Source: Tenggerimyces flavus
GTDB taxonomy: Bacteria > Actinomycetota > Actinomycetes > Propionibacteriales > Actinopolymorphaceae
DNA length: 64,000 nucleotides
Direction: 5' to 3'
NCBI RefSeq assembly: GCF_016907715.1
Contig: NZ_JAFBCM010000001.1
Coordinates: forward strand, 8,223,420 to 8,287,419
Shown in pieces: positions 25,143-29,491 of this stretch (its first letter is position 1; every line of letters begins with the position of its first letter). The translations under genes were made by a program, and so were the position numbers. Under the pieces are notes generated by a model. It had not been told where the DNA came from. It saw nothing but the letters and a program-made list of their open reading frames with translations, and searched no databases.

Positions 25143-25742
25143 GTGGGCAAGAACGAGGAGAACGTACGGAAGTATCGGGTGCTGTCCCCGATCTACGACC
25201 TCTTCGCGCGCAATCCGCTGATCGAGAAGCCGCGCCAGCGACAGTTCGAGCTCGCCGCCATCCGGCCGGGTGACCGCGTCCTGGTCGTCGGCGTCGGCAC
25301 GGGGCTGGACCTCGAACTCGTGCCGGCTGACGCGCGGGTGACCGGCATCGACCTGTCCGCGGACATGCTGCGGCAGGCCGAGCTCAAGGTGCGGCGGGAC
25401 GACTGGACGCTGCTGCGGATGAACGCCGAGCAGCTGGAGTTCGACGACGACTCGTTCGACGTCGTCGTCATGAACTGCATCCTCAGCGTGGTCGCCGATC
25501 CCACCAAGGCGCTCAGCGAAGCCGCTCGCGTGCTCGCGCCGATGGGGAGCATCTGGATCCTGGGCAAGTTCATCGAGACTCCGCCGAGCCTTCCCCGCCG
25601 CGCCCTCAGCTCAGCCCTCGTCGCGATCGGCGGCGCCGACCTCACCAGGTCCCTGACCAGGACGATCGGCACCACCCCGCTCCGTACGGCCCGGCACGAA
25701 CGCGCCCTGATCGCCGACATCATCCAGCTCACCCCCGCCTAG
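25143..25742 (+). CDS. Class I SAM-dependent methyltransferase (UbiE-like)
   Basis: A 199-residue methyltransferase with motif I VLVVGVGTGLDLELV, acidic loop VTGIDLSADML and the UbiE-like FDVVVMNCILSVVADP. The C-terminal part (LGKFIETPPSLPRRALSSAL) suggests a lipid or quinone-like substrate, by resemblance only. GTG 25143 is used, with GGAGGTG about 7 bases upstream; TTG 25140 is equally near. It is the second gene after the Ser/Thr kinase and is probably co-transcribed with it. Confidence 0.82.
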   Translation: MGKNEENVRKYRVLSPIYDLFARNPLIEKPRQRQFELAAIRPGDRVLVVGVGTGLDLELVPADARVTGIDLSADMLRQAELKVRRDDWTLLRMNAEQLEFDDDSFDVVVMNCILSVVADPTKALSEAARVLAPMGSIWILGKFIETPPSLPRRALSSALVAIGGADLTRSLTRTIGTTPLRTARHERALIADIIQLTPA

Positions 25743-25780
25743 CCGCAGCGTCCGGCGGTCGCTTCGACCGATCCCGACCC

Positions 25781-25816
25781 GGGGCGAATGATCATGTTTA
25801 CATGATCATTGGCCCC
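25781..25816. terminator. Palindromic bidirectional terminator (TGATCATG family)
   Basis: An 11-bp perfect stem (AATGATCATGT, 25787-25797, with 25800-25810) is extended by GGGGC/GCCCC outer arms and followed by TTTA. It lies between convergent stops at 25742 and 25880 and shares its TGATCATG core with the inverted repeat at 15398. Confidence 0.75.
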
Positions 25817-25879
25817 TTTACGTGGGGTGTACGCCAGGTAGAGGGGCCACTGGCCAGGTGAGGCGACGAAGTCCAAAGC

Positions 25880-27073
25880 CTAGGTCGCTAGTCCTAGGCG
25901 CAGGGCGCGGCTGAGCAGGATGGGGGCACCGGCGAGGGCGCAGAGGGCGGCCGCGGCGAGCATCGCGGTGGCAGGGCTCAGCTGGGCGGCCAGCGTTCCG
26001 AGCAGCAGGTCGCCGAGCAGCATCGTCAGCATCTGCACGACGATCAGCACGGACTGGAAGCGCGCCAGCATGTCCGGCGGAGTGCGCAACAGGTACAGCG
26101 GGAAGAGGTGGCTGGTGAACAGCGCCGTACCGACGCCCATGACCGCGGTGCCGGCGAACGCGAGGTACGGCTCGGGCACCAGCGCCGCGATGACGACGCC
26201 CGCCGCCGCGAGCAGCGGTCCGGCCACCAGCAGCACGACGGGGCGCCTGTACGTCCCGACCTTCGCCACCACCAGCGAGACCGCGAGCGCGCCCACGATC
26301 CAGAACGCCTCCATCAGCCCCGCGTCGCCCACGGTCCAACCGCGGCTGCGCGCCAGCAACGGAACCGCCAGCCCGAGCATCGGGATCACGCTGCCCGCCA
26401 CGATCCCCACCGCGCACAGCATCGCGACCACGCCGGGCACCGAACGGACGGCACGCAGCCCCGCGCGCAGCTCCAACGAGGCGGAGCCGCCCACGGTGCG
26501 CGGAGGTTCGTACGGCGGCCGTACCACCAGCAGAACGACCAGAACGCCAACGAAGCTTGCCAAATCCGCCAGCATCGCCCCGCTGAACGAAATCGCCACG
26601 ACCACCGCGCCCAGCGGCGGCCCGGCCATCCGCGCGATCTCCATCGCCGACCCGGTCAGCGACATCGCCCGCGCCACACCGGACTCCGGGAAGAAGAGCC
26701 GCGGGAACGCGTTGTTCGCCGGCCGCCGGAAGGACCCGACGATCCCGCCACACACGGACAGACCCACCAGCACAGCAGCGGAAACGGGCACGAAGTGCGC
26801 GAGCAGCAGGTAGCCGGCGAGCAGCAGGCACATCGCGATGTCGGAGGCGATGATCGTTCGCCGCAACCCCCATCGGTCGGCGGACACGCCGCCCACCAGA
26901 GTGAGCAGCAGCGGCGGCACCAGGCCGGCGACCATCACCGCGGTGACGACGCCGGCGCCGAGGCCCGACGCGGTCCATGACAACGCGAAGTAGAAGATGC
27001 CGTCGCCGATCGCGGAGATCGTGGCCGCGCCCAACCAAGCGAGGAATCCCCCACGCAGCAAGCGAGAACTCAC
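25880..27073 (-). CDS. MFS exporter coupled to MerR-clamp regulator
   Basis: A 397-residue major facilitator with about 12 membrane helices, of the MFS_3/EntS-like efflux type. Visible segments are LLTLVGGVSADRWGLRRTI (motif A, about 54-72) and SFRRPANNAFPRLFF. GTG 27073 overlaps the TGA of the upstream MerR gene (GTGA), so translation is coupled and the two are one unit. Efflux genes under MerR regulators often export the compound that the regulator senses. The odd sensor domain of that regulator makes a compound binding the DNA sliding clamp a candidate substrate (inference). Confidence 0.86.
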   Translation of the reverse strand: MSSRLLRGGFLAWLGAATISAIGDGIFYFALSWTASGLGAGVVTAVMVAGLVPPLLLTLVGGVSADRWGLRRTIIASDIAMCLLLAGYLLLAHFVPVSAAVLVGLSVCGGIVGSFRRPANNAFPRLFFPESGVARAMSLTGSAMEIARMAGPPLGAVVVAISFSGAMLADLASFVGVLVVLLVVRPPYEPPRTVGGSASLELRAGLRAVRSVPGVVAMLCAVGIVAGSVIPMLGLAVPLLARSRGWTVGDAGLMEAFWIVGALAVSLVVAKVGTYRRPVVLLVAGPLLAAAGVVIAALVPEPYLAFAGTAVMGVGTALFTSHLFPLYLLRTPPDMLARFQSVLIVVQMLTMLLGDLLLGTLAAQLSPATAMLAAAALCALAGAPILLSRALRLGLAT

Positions 27074-28116
27074 GACTGCGGACGTCCCGGCATCAGCAGG
27101 ACGCACAGGCTGTTCTGCTCGACCGGGAACAGCTGCACCGCCCGATCCGTACCCGCGTACACCAGCGAGACCAACGTCCCGACCATCACGTCCAGGGCCG
27201 ACCGCAGCAACGACGAGGAGAGCCACAACGTCTCCGGCTGCCCGGAGGTGACGGCCTGGACCCGAGCACCCTCGCTGTCGCCCGCCACGCTCACCACGAG
27301 CCGATCCGTCCCTGCCGCAAGGCGAATCGGCGTCTCGTCCGCAGGCAACAGCCGGGCCAGCACGGAACGGTCGAACGTCACCCGTCCCACTCGTTCGGCC
27401 GGAATGATCAACCGGTACGCCGGAAACCGGTCGTCCTCCGTCGTGAACGGCACCACGCCGGACTCGTCGCACACCTCGAGCGCGCCCGAGGCGAACGAGA
27501 CCGTCACCACATCGCGCCGCGCCAGGTGATCGGCCAACTCCTCCAGCCCAGCGAGGGAAACGAACGCTCGACGATCCGCGACCTGCGCCTCGGCGACCGG
27601 AATCGTCCAGTACGCAAGCCAATACCGATCCGTCGCGACCACCGTGATCCCGCCGGGACCCAGATCGAGGAGGACGCCACGCAACGGATCCTCAACGACA
27701 GAAGCAGCTCGCGCCACCCGCCGCAGTCCCGCCGCCAACGCCGGCCCGTCGACCGTCACGGCAACGGGAGAGATGCTGGCCTCGCCCGAGAGGGCCGACA
27801 CGATCTCGTCCACCGTCGCCGAAGCCTGCCGAGCGTTGCGCGCCGCCCGTTCGGCGAACCCGGCCAGGATCTCGGCCGCACGCGACGGAGGACCGGCCAA
27901 CACCATCCGCATGGAGTCCACCGGCACGCCGACGTCGCGCATCCGCCGGATCAGCAACGCACGGCGTTCGAGCTCGGGCGTGTAGTACCGGTACCCCGTC
28001 CGCGGGTCCACCTCGGCCGGCGGGAGCAGCCCCGCCTCGTCGTAGTAGCGCAGGGCGCTCGGCGCCAGCTCGACCGCGCGAGCGAACGCGCTGATCGTCA
28101 ACAACGGCTCCGACAC
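27070..28116 (-). CDS. MerR regulator fused to sliding-clamp (DnaN) domain 2-3-like sensor
   Basis: A 348-residue protein. Residues about 6-75 are a MerR winged helix (LTISAFARAVELAPSALRYY, GYRYY), and about 76-112 the coiled dimer helix. Residues about 120-240 look like DnaN domain 2 (GVLLDLGPGGITVVATDRYW; DDRFPAYRLIIP) and 241-348 like domain 3, ending with the clamp-like LLMP. Domain 1 is absent. The retained TDRYWL and LLMPG correspond to the TDGHRL and VMPM segments lining the peptide-binding cleft of E. coli DnaN. GTG 28116 is chosen because the promoter places the transcript start almost on it. An MFS exporter overlaps its stop. Confidence 0.85.
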   Translation of the reverse strand: MSEPLLTISAFARAVELAPSALRYYDEAGLLPPAEVDPRTGYRYYTPELERRALLIRRMRDVGVPVDSMRMVLAGPPSRAAEILAGFAERAARNARQASATVDEIVSALSGEASISPVAVTVDGPALAAGLRRVARAASVVEDPLRGVLLDLGPGGITVVATDRYWLAYWTIPVAEAQVADRRAFVSLAGLEELADHLARRDVVTVSFASGALEVCDESGVVPFTTEDDRFPAYRLIIPAERVGRVTFDRSVLARLLPADETPIRLAAGTDRLVVSVAGDSEGARVQAVTSGQPETLWLSSSLLRSALDVMVGTLVSLVYAGTDRAVQLFPVEQNSLCVLLMPGRPQS

Positions 28117-28123
28117 ATCTCGG

Positions 28124-28155
28124 AGTATCAACCTTCATCCGGCTTGAAGGTCAAC
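28124..28155 (-). promoter_or_regulatory. MerR-type autoregulatory promoter/operator
   Basis: On the minus strand, -35 TTGACC (28155-28150) and -10 GATACT (28129-28124) are 20 bp apart, longer than the usual 17. A perfect dyad fills the spacer: ACCTTCA (28131-28137) with TGAAGGT (28145-28151), 7 bp between. This is the standard MerR activator layout. Transcription would begin near GTG 28116, giving a leaderless mRNA. Confidence 0.75.
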
Positions 28156-28166
28156 TGGCGCGGGGC

Positions 28167-28197
28167 TTGACAGCAGGTCGACGTTCGTGGCTACCCT
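28167..28197 (+). promoter_or_regulatory. Candidate promoter of the pseudokinase gene
   Basis: TTGACA (28167-28172) and TACCCT (28192-28197), 19 bp apart, point toward the gene at 28340. They lie just beyond the MerR dyad, so the regulator could affect both directions. Confidence 0.4.
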
Positions 28198-28339
28198 CGT
28201 AGACAGCGCGTTGGGAGCGCGCCGCGGGCTCGCCGGAAGGCTCGAAGCCATCCCAGTTGGTGAGTTGACGAGTTGAGCGACGGATGCCGAAGCTCTTGAC
28301 CTGCTCGTGCGAGCCCGGGCGGAAGAGCCGTGGTGTCCC

Positions 28340-29491
28340 ATGAAGACGCTCCCCGACAACCCCAACCTCGATCACCTGCGTCAGCAGGCCAAGGACCTGC
28401 TCGCGGGCCTGCGCGACAGCAGGCCGCAGACGACGCTGTCCGAGGCTCAGGCGCAGCTCGCCCAGCAGTACGGGTTCCGTACCTGGCCCGAGCTCAAGGC
28501 CGAGGTCGACCACCGCACCGGAGCCGGCGACCAGGCCGATGCCGCGCTGGCCCGGGCAATCGCCGCGGCGTACGACCTCGGCGAGATCACCGGGCCGATG
28601 CGGTCGATCGCACGACCGGACGACAGCGGGCGGCGGTGGTCGCTCGAGACCGCGCGCGGCCGGTTCGAGGTGCGCACGATGGACGACTGGTGGCCGATCG
28701 TCGACGCCGACACCGGCGTCGCGTTGCAGGAGGCGGCCGCGAAGGCGGGCGTAGAGCTGCCGTTGCCCGTACGCAGCCGCGCCGGCGCGGTCATCGAGAC
28801 GATCGGCGACCACACCTGGCGCGTCGACGAGTGGGTGCACGCCGGCCCACCGCTGTCGGCACCGGTCGGCGCGAAGGCCGCGTACGGCGCGGGCCAGATC
28901 CTCGCGACGCTGCACGGCCTCGGGCTCGAGGTCGACGGGATCTCGCCGTACCACTCCCGTCGGCTCACCGACGAGACCTGGGCCGACCTCACCACGAAGG
29001 CGAAGGGCGCGGACATCGACTGGGCCGGCGACCTCTCGAACGCGTCGTACAACCTGGCCGATCTCGAGCGCATCGGTGCGGACGTCGAGCCGCCCGCTCC
29101 GGTGCTGACGCACAACAACCTCACGCCGAACAACGTCCGGCGAGCTGCCGAAGGTCGGCTGATCGTGGTCGGATGGGAGCACGTCGGTGGGCTGCCGCCG
29201 AGCTGGGAGCTCGCGATCGCCCTGCAGCAGTGGGTGTTGCGCAGCCCGACAGGCGCCCGGGCGATGCTCGACGGCTACCGGGAGGTGGCGGGCTCCCTGC
29301 CGCGGTTGGATCTCCCGATGTTCCGCGGCGCGGTGATCAGCCTGGCGAACTACGTGTGGGGCCAGGTCGACTACGCCCTCGCCGCGACCGCGGAGGCCGA
29401 CCGCCAGCATGGCAACCGCAGCGTGCGGCATCTGCTCAGCGGACTGCCCACGCGGAGCGACCTGGAACGGCTGGTCGACCTAGCCGGCTGA
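28340..29491 (+). CDS. APH-fold pseudokinase with LPDNPNLDHLRQQAKDLL N-terminal module
   Basis: A 383-residue protein. Residues about 3-58 form a small helical module (LPDNPNLDHLRQQAKDLL ... YGFRTWPELKAEV) found at the N-terminus of various actinobacterial proteins. The rest resembles an aminoglycoside phosphotransferase, but the catalytic loop reads THNNLTPNN where active relatives have HxDxxxxN, and the metal motif reads VVGWEH instead of xDW/DF. Both key aspartates are lost, so it is probably a binding rather than catalytic protein. ATG 28340 is used. It is divergent from the MerR-clamp gene, and its end overlaps the S41-like gene by 12 bp. Confidence 0.75.
   Translation: MKTLPDNPNLDHLRQQAKDLLAGLRDSRPQTTLSEAQAQLAQQYGFRTWPELKAEVDHRTGAGDQADAALARAIAAAYDLGEITGPMRSIARPDDSGRRWSLETARGRFEVRTMDDWWPIVDADTGVALQEAAAKAGVELPLPVRSRAGAVIETIGDHTWRVDEWVHAGPPLSAPVGAKAAYGAGQILATLHGLGLEVDGISPYHSRRLTDETWADLTTKAKGADIDWAGDLSNASYNLADLERIGADVEPPAPVLTHNNLTPNNVRRAAEGRLIVVGWEHVGGLPPSWELAIALQQWVLRSPTGARAMLDGYREVAGSLPRLDLPMFRGAVISLANYVWGQVDYALAATAEADRQHGNRSVRHLLSGLPTRSDLERLVDLAG

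Follow-up and report, generated by a model that had tools for sequence, protein, structure and literature searches.

A regulator of Tenggerimyces flavus, a soil-type bacterium, was confirmed to consist of a MerR DNA-binding domain and a long helix fused to domains II and III of the DnaN sliding clamp. In the window, that is, the whole stretch of 64,000 nucleotides that was analysed, the coupling of this clamp-fold sensor to an exporter is well supported. The reading preferred here, with a rough probability of 0.5, is a self-contained and autoregulated MerR switch, in which the clamp cleft would act as a ligand sensor driving export by a transporter of the MFS type.

Domain architecture and clamp fold

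The regulator is encoded by a 348-residue open reading frame with a GTG start, and its stop overlaps the gene of the exporter.

27070–28116, minus strand: MerR-clamp regulator gene, 348 residues, assigned from the open reading frame, profile matches and full-length relatives at 35–40% identity
27895–28098, minus strand: MerR winged helix-turn-helix, residues 7–74 (PF13411, E 2e-14)
27790–27888, minus strand: long helix, residues 77–109 (76–108 in the structural model), located where MerR proteins have their dimerisation coiled coil, a role that is presumed here
27079–27780, minus strand: sliding-clamp domains II–III, residues 113–346, putative sensor (Z 25.7; TIGR00663)
25880–27073, minus strand: MFS exporter, 397 residues when read from GTG 27073, with a 4-nt overlap (GTGA) between its start and the stop of the regulator (PF07690, E 4.9e-27)

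The MerR winged helix named in the initial annotation was recovered on this minus-strand frame by PF13411 and also by PF00376 (E 4.1e-10). The helix at residues 77–109 is taken to be a dimerisation coiled coil, as in the MerR family generally. In Pfam, the window protein matched no known effector domain up to E 10, GyrI-like and TipAS domains included. The remainder had been described as following the DnaN domain 2–domain 3 pattern with domain 1 missing, and both points held. Residues 120–343 matched positions 127–364 of the 367 in the NCBIfam dnaN model TIGR00663 (E 2.5e-6); thus, clamp domain I is absent and the MerR head stands in its place. The TIGR00663 score was 26.7 bits, far under the equivalog cut-off of 137.65, and PF02767 matched the window protein weakly (16 bits against a cut-off of 27). 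All four relatives tested exceeded the PF02767 cut-off (34.6–50.3 bits), and the E-values for TIGR00663 went down to 3.4e-19 among the MerR-clamp relatives.

The structure of the regulator was predicted with AlphaFold2 from 67 sequences, with a mean pLDDT of 92.5 and a pTM of 0.73, so that the placement of the MerR head relative to the clamp is less sure than the domains themselves. On superposition with VIA-align, model residues 112–345 (protein 113–346) were placed on residues 121–366 of the E. coli clamp with a Z-score of 25.7 and an rmsd of 3.4 over 231 residues. Moreover, the 50 Foldseek matches listed, out of 1177, were all sliding clamps. A chance resemblance to the clamp was ruled out by these profile and fold scores. 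A displaced or duplicated dnaN was also ruled out, since both dnaN itself and a dnaN-like paralog are present at other places in the genome, and the tree puts the regulator among the other MerR-clamps and not with dnaN. The paralog (L149, G000:C1:642040), which the genome has in addition to dnaN, is divergent (branch 1.33) and carries lysine at the V247 position and arginine at the M364 position.

I272 and L273 of the E. coli clamp are residues of the ring dimer interface. The segment containing them is gapped in 98–100% of 115 aligned MerR-clamp members, the window protein included, and this part of the DnaN ring interface is thus lacking. An I272/L273 double mutant is named in the available part of a clamp review (PMC11139829). 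As both domain I and the ring-interface segment are gone, a MerR-clamp should no longer close a ring, and judging from the alignment the sensor is probably monomeric and ring-incompetent. Together with the retention of subsite I of the cleft, described below, this loss is the pattern expected if a clamp had become a binding module that no longer forms rings.

A probable autoregulated promoter

The firmest functional evidence came from the promoter, which had not been part of the finding in the initial annotation.

28124–28154, minus strand: MerR-type promoter with −35 TTGACC (28149–28154), a 19-bp spacer and −10 GATACT (28124–28129), found by eye and by conservation
28131–28151, minus strand: operator dyad ACCTTCA-N7-TGAAGGT within the spacer, found by motif search

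MerR activators use promoters with a spacer of 19–20 bp, according to the available part of PMC8113463, and the dyad of the window lies inside a promoter of this kind. Between the −10 element and the start codon of the regulator lie 7 nt, and the transcript is possibly leaderless. The exact site TTGACCTTC was present in 110 of the 115 distinct upstream regions (124 loci). Three further regions had one mismatch, which brought the total to 113 of 115, and the remaining two had two and three mismatches, respectively. In shuffled controls, 14 of 2300 sequences had the site with one mismatch and none had it exactly. In addition, a −10 element (NANNNT) occurred at spacer 19 in 97% of 113 regions, compared with 0–7% at spacers of 15–18 and 20–22.

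In the case of the window, the dyad search gave a single match, namely the promoter of the regulator itself, and none in 100 shuffles. The search of the 8.5-Mb genome revealed no second operator with up to three mismatches to the exact site, and none with up to two mismatches to the degenerate form, for which a reversed control pattern gave one match. A wider regulon was rejected on this genome-wide absence at two to three mismatches; most likely, no operon other than its own is under the control of the regulator. The element reads as an autoregulated MerR promoter, in which site, spacing and conservation are observed and binding is presumed.

Standard sigma-70 and terminator scans of positions 25600–28400 found nothing, the sigma-70 scan covering spacers of 16–18 only. 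On the plus strand at 28167–28197, TTGACA and TACCCT were seen by eye 19 bp apart, directed toward a divergent Glyoxalase_8-type gene that starts near 28340; the dyad search gave no match at this element.

Distribution and phylogeny

MerR-clamps have relatives in many Actinomycetes, and their distribution is patchy. The main family was found in at least 18 of 394 genomes of the class, that of the window included (L038–L055), and a distant type C in at least six further class genomes (L153–L157, L159, family f22). In Kribbella (g5), 28 of 31 genomes had a match at E ≤ 1e-20; in five of these the unbroken match is confined to the MerR half. In a phylum sample of 159 genomes searched at E ≤ 1e-36, four matches covered both halves, all of them in the class Actinomycetes, and no MerR-clamp was found outside the class. 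Of these four, one is the window itself and one is of type C. The remaining 31 matches were restricted to the clamp part and resemble dnaN. Among 276 relatives, the best 80 all matched both models, and 79 were full length, the exception (L097) ending at profile position 314; these relatives were retrieved by MerR-half patterns and are biased toward full-length fusions. In five plasmid records, a relative covered 80% or more of a Streptomyces query. Four of these relatives are annotated only as MerR family transcriptional regulators and one has no listed gene, so the clamp half has gone unremarked in those records.

In a maximum-likelihood tree, the main family was separated from dnaN and from type C with support of 100/97. 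The window protein was placed in a clade of eight, all of them MFS-coupled, with moderate support (93/73), and its exact place is unsure as its branch is long (1.1). A further, more distant MerR-clamp, from another genus of the family to which the window belongs (L164), overlaps an MFS gene by 4 nt and is type C-like as judged by sequence alone. Six type C-like upstream regions have a similar promoter element of the TTGACCCTCGAC type, in which CCCTC replaces CCTTC by eye. Two peculiarities were noted among the members. Three Kribbella proteins (L033, L034 and L035; 401–472 residues) contain long insertions rich in Ala, Ser, Thr and Gly in the first clamp domain, and in genome G081 a relative (L037/L162) is divided between two reading frames and is followed by a TPR-like gene.

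Conservation of the partner-binding cleft

Residues of the pocket, divided into subsites I and II, were taken from the lists in the available part of the clamp review (PMC11139829) and located by alignment.

27616–27633, minus strand: cleft segment TDRYWL, residues 162–167, corresponding to E. coli T172–L177, with W166 replacing R176
27421–27423, minus strand: cleft residue P232, corresponding to E. coli P242
27082–27099, minus strand: cleft segment LLMPGR, residues 340–345, corresponding to E. coli V360–R365

The claim that TDRYWL and LLMPG are counterparts of the DnaN cleft segments was borne out by the alignment. Across the family, it is mainly subsite I of the cleft that is kept, and subsite II is changed. 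L340, M342 and P343 correspond to V360, M362 and P363 of the E. coli clamp, and M342 and P343 are invariant in the 115 aligned members. The 12 columns of subsite I had a mean entropy of 0.92, compared with 1.96 for other columns, and a value as low was obtained in 5 of 20000 permutations. Nine of the 12 columns were under 0.7, and positions 152, 246 and 247 vary, the first two being arginines. With another choice of 11 columns, in which D173 was added and R152 and R246 were left out, the values were 0.51 and 1.97, respectively (0 of 20000 permutations). In the case of subsite II, the entropy was 1.45 (1879 of 20000 permutations as low) when its two residues common to subsite I were included and 1.82 (8298 of 20000) when they were removed.

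Fold constraints alone could conserve clamp residues. Thus, the retention of subsite I was compared with that of other DnaN-conserved columns, using nine actinobacterial DnaN sequences as reference and excluding the paralog L149. At the level of at least 80% in the family, 9 of 11 subsite I columns were kept, compared with 16 of 80 elsewhere (Fisher p 1e-4), and at the 50% level the counts were 9 of 11 and 30 of 80 (p 0.007). In the window protein, in which W replaces R176, eight of the 11 DnaN-conserved columns in subsite I are retained, and 28 of the 80 elsewhere. Of three DnaN-conserved subsite II columns, one was kept at 50% or more in the family and two in the window protein; N320 is replaced by D or T and Y323 by V or L in the family, and R365 is kept in 49%. 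Subsite I is thus mostly kept across MerR-clamps, except for its arginines 152 and 246, and conservation does not extend to subsite II as a whole.

In the clade of the window, the cleft has drifted or been retuned. R176 is replaced by W in all eight members, while T172 is kept in six, Y175 in five and L177 in four. With such a retuned cleft, the ligand of this clade probably differs from that of the Streptomyces and Kribbella members. The R176W clade, together with the replacement of N320 and Y323 and the retention of R365 in only 49%, also counts against reading the regulator simply as a griselimycin sensor.

The same drift, together with the loss of subsite II and of the subsite I arginines, fits the idea that the clamp fold is a scaffold only, with an unrelated small molecule bound elsewhere or a role confined to protein contacts, and with cleft residues that persist for the stability of the fold. 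Conserved family-specific stretches outside the pocket, around E. coli 351–355 (SADQG-like) and 135–142, point in this direction as well. However, the retention of subsite I far above the other DnaN-conserved columns (the 9 of 11 against 16 of 80) and the invariance of M362 in subsite I and P363 in subsite II make this explanation unlikely.

Downstream partners

The overlap of the regulator stop with the MFS gene (GTGA), as originally reported, amounts to 4 nt if the MFS protein starts at GTG 27073; in-frame starts further upstream exist. The same 4-nt overlap was found in 31 of 32 homologous MFS partner loci. The window MFS protein also matched TIGR00900, a model of H+ antiporters (E 4.6e-31, under the model cut-off). 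Downstream genes were compared over 125 reference loci, which include two copies of the window (L038 and L150) and several duplicates from other genomes; identical sequences were removed only in counts given as distinct. An MFS gene was directly downstream in 34 loci, including the two window copies (32 others). The commonest partner was a TPR-like protein of about 150–260 residues, found downstream in 54 loci. The two partners never occurred together (0 of 125), and 37 loci had neither, in that no such gene started between −60 and +250 nt relative to the stop of the regulator. Accordingly, the coupling to an exporter proposed in the initial annotation is tight at the window and at the 32 homologous loci but does not hold as a general rule. 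The survey of genomes for MerR-clamps beside MFS genes, proposed at the same time, showed an arrangement that recurs, with MFS as the minority partner. As the TPR-like partner occupies the larger branch, export is not the general output of the family.

The MFS partners appear to form a single orthologous group: with the partner from Nocardioides as query, the MFS of the window was matched at E 1.5e-65, and 18 other matches in the genome reached 1.2e-13 at best. Distances between MFS proteins correlated with those between regulators (r 0.97, n = 24 pairs, 0 of 2000 permutations as high), a correlation that is dominated by Kribbella and to which shared descent contributes and could be the whole explanation. 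One TPR-like partner (L074) gave weak TPR_12 and NsdA-family matches. At another locus, on the minus strand (L048), the regulator and the TPR-like protein lie in one open frame of 544 residues, with the clamp at 132–364 and the TPR part at 395–522, which suggests that the two parts work together. This single frame is either a natural fusion or a sequencing artefact. Clamp-binding motifs were found in none of 24 MFS partners (4.0 in shuffles) and in one of 46 TPR-like partners (1.8 in shuffles), that is, not beyond chance in either. The four neighbours of the regulator that were scanned, a Ser/Thr kinase, a methyltransferase, the Glyoxalase_8-type protein and a TPR/S41-like protein, included no biosynthetic cluster.

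These partners bear on the possibility that the clamp domain senses endogenous clamp-binding peptides or replisome or repair proteins and reports the state of replication, with MFS and TPR-like proteins as different outputs. Subsite I, the retained part of the cleft, is where natural clamp-binding motifs dock with their hydrophobic end, according to the available part of PMC11139829, and the commonest partner is intracellular and once shares a frame with the regulator. Nevertheless, an endogenous signal is rather improbable. Under the one operator that the genome search turned up, the exporter is the sole neighbour, which fits a small exported ligand better; the spread of the main family over at least 18 of 394 class genomes is unlike that of a core replication sensor; and neither partner is enriched in clamp-binding motifs.

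Proposed mechanism and comparison with known systems

In the preferred reading, a MerR dimer, joined through the coiled coil, would occupy the one dyad of its own promoter, between −35 and −10 elements that are 19 bp apart. A hydrophobic, peptide-like ligand may then bind in the old partner-binding cleft, chiefly in subsite I, as its selective conservation suggests. On ligand binding, the promoter DNA would be distorted in the manner of other MerR activators, and both the regulator and the MFS pump would be transcribed more strongly; the pump might in turn export the ligand itself or some compound made with it. The link to MFS favours a small exported ligand in the window. That the regulator is instead a repressor or a non-functional relic is highly improbable: some MerR proteins do repress, and the relative in G081 is split over two frames, but the frame of the window is intact and the promoter geometry of activated MerR genes is kept in 113 of 115 distinct upstream regions.

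BmrR, EcmrR, TipA and AlbA resemble the MerR-clamp, as generally understood, in having a MerR domain, a coiled coil and a C-terminal ligand domain, and in their autoregulation and their link to efflux or drug binding. They also share the promoter with a 19–20 bp spacer, according to the available part of PMC8113463. Unlike the BmrR/TipA type, the MerR-clamp has a two-domain sliding-clamp fold as sensor. With the DnaN beta clamp it shares the fold and order of domains II and III and most of subsite I; it differs in having MerR for domain I, in the deletion of the I272/L273 segment, in the changed subsite II, and in being present besides the genome's own dnaN and the second dnaN-like gene.

The step from the cleft to clamp-binding antibiotics is an analogy. 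Griselimycin and mycoplanecin bind the clamp pocket, and their clusters carry an extra DnaN (griR/mypR) with a proposed role in self-resistance, as described in the available part of PMC10817943. By this analogy, sensing of clamp-binding antibiotics by the regulator is plausible. GriR and MypR resemble the MerR-clamp in being extra clamp-derived proteins thought to handle such antibiotics; in the same part of PMC10817943 they are DnaN self-resistance genes, whereas the MerR-clamp is a transcription factor. A broader proposal would make MerR-clamps widespread actinobacterial target-mimic sensors, in which a ring-incompetent clamp decoy detects natural products that attack DnaN, the response being MFS export or, in the larger branch, a TPR-like protein that possibly protects the clamp, with R176W as a shift in ligand class. 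We hold this proposal as tentative and doubtful. A sensor built on a fold like that of the drug target is not wholly without precedent: the sensor domain of the beta-lactam sensors BlaR1 and MecR1 is related to the fold that the drug attacks. BlaR1 and MecR1 are membrane receptors acting through proteolysis, while the MerR-clamp is a one-component regulator. To our knowledge, there is no precedent for a drug-target-related sensor among MerR proteins or for DnaN.

Implications

MerR regulators with varied effector domains are already known. No description of a MerR-clamp protein was recognised in the literature searched, as judged by titles and the openings of abstracts, and as far as these searches show, a sliding-clamp effector domain in a MerR regulator is new. 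The sliding-clamp fold thus joins the sensor domains of bacterial one-component regulators. The switch also offers a concrete and cheap test for clamp-binding natural products, in that a genetically encoded reporter may respond to such compounds. Should the ligand turn out to be a DnaN inhibitor, the family would indicate that such inhibitors are encountered in soil, as well as a means of resistance where the antibiotic target is a promising one. As MerR-clamp switches recur in many actinobacteria, they could be how molecules that attack replication are detected in these bacteria.
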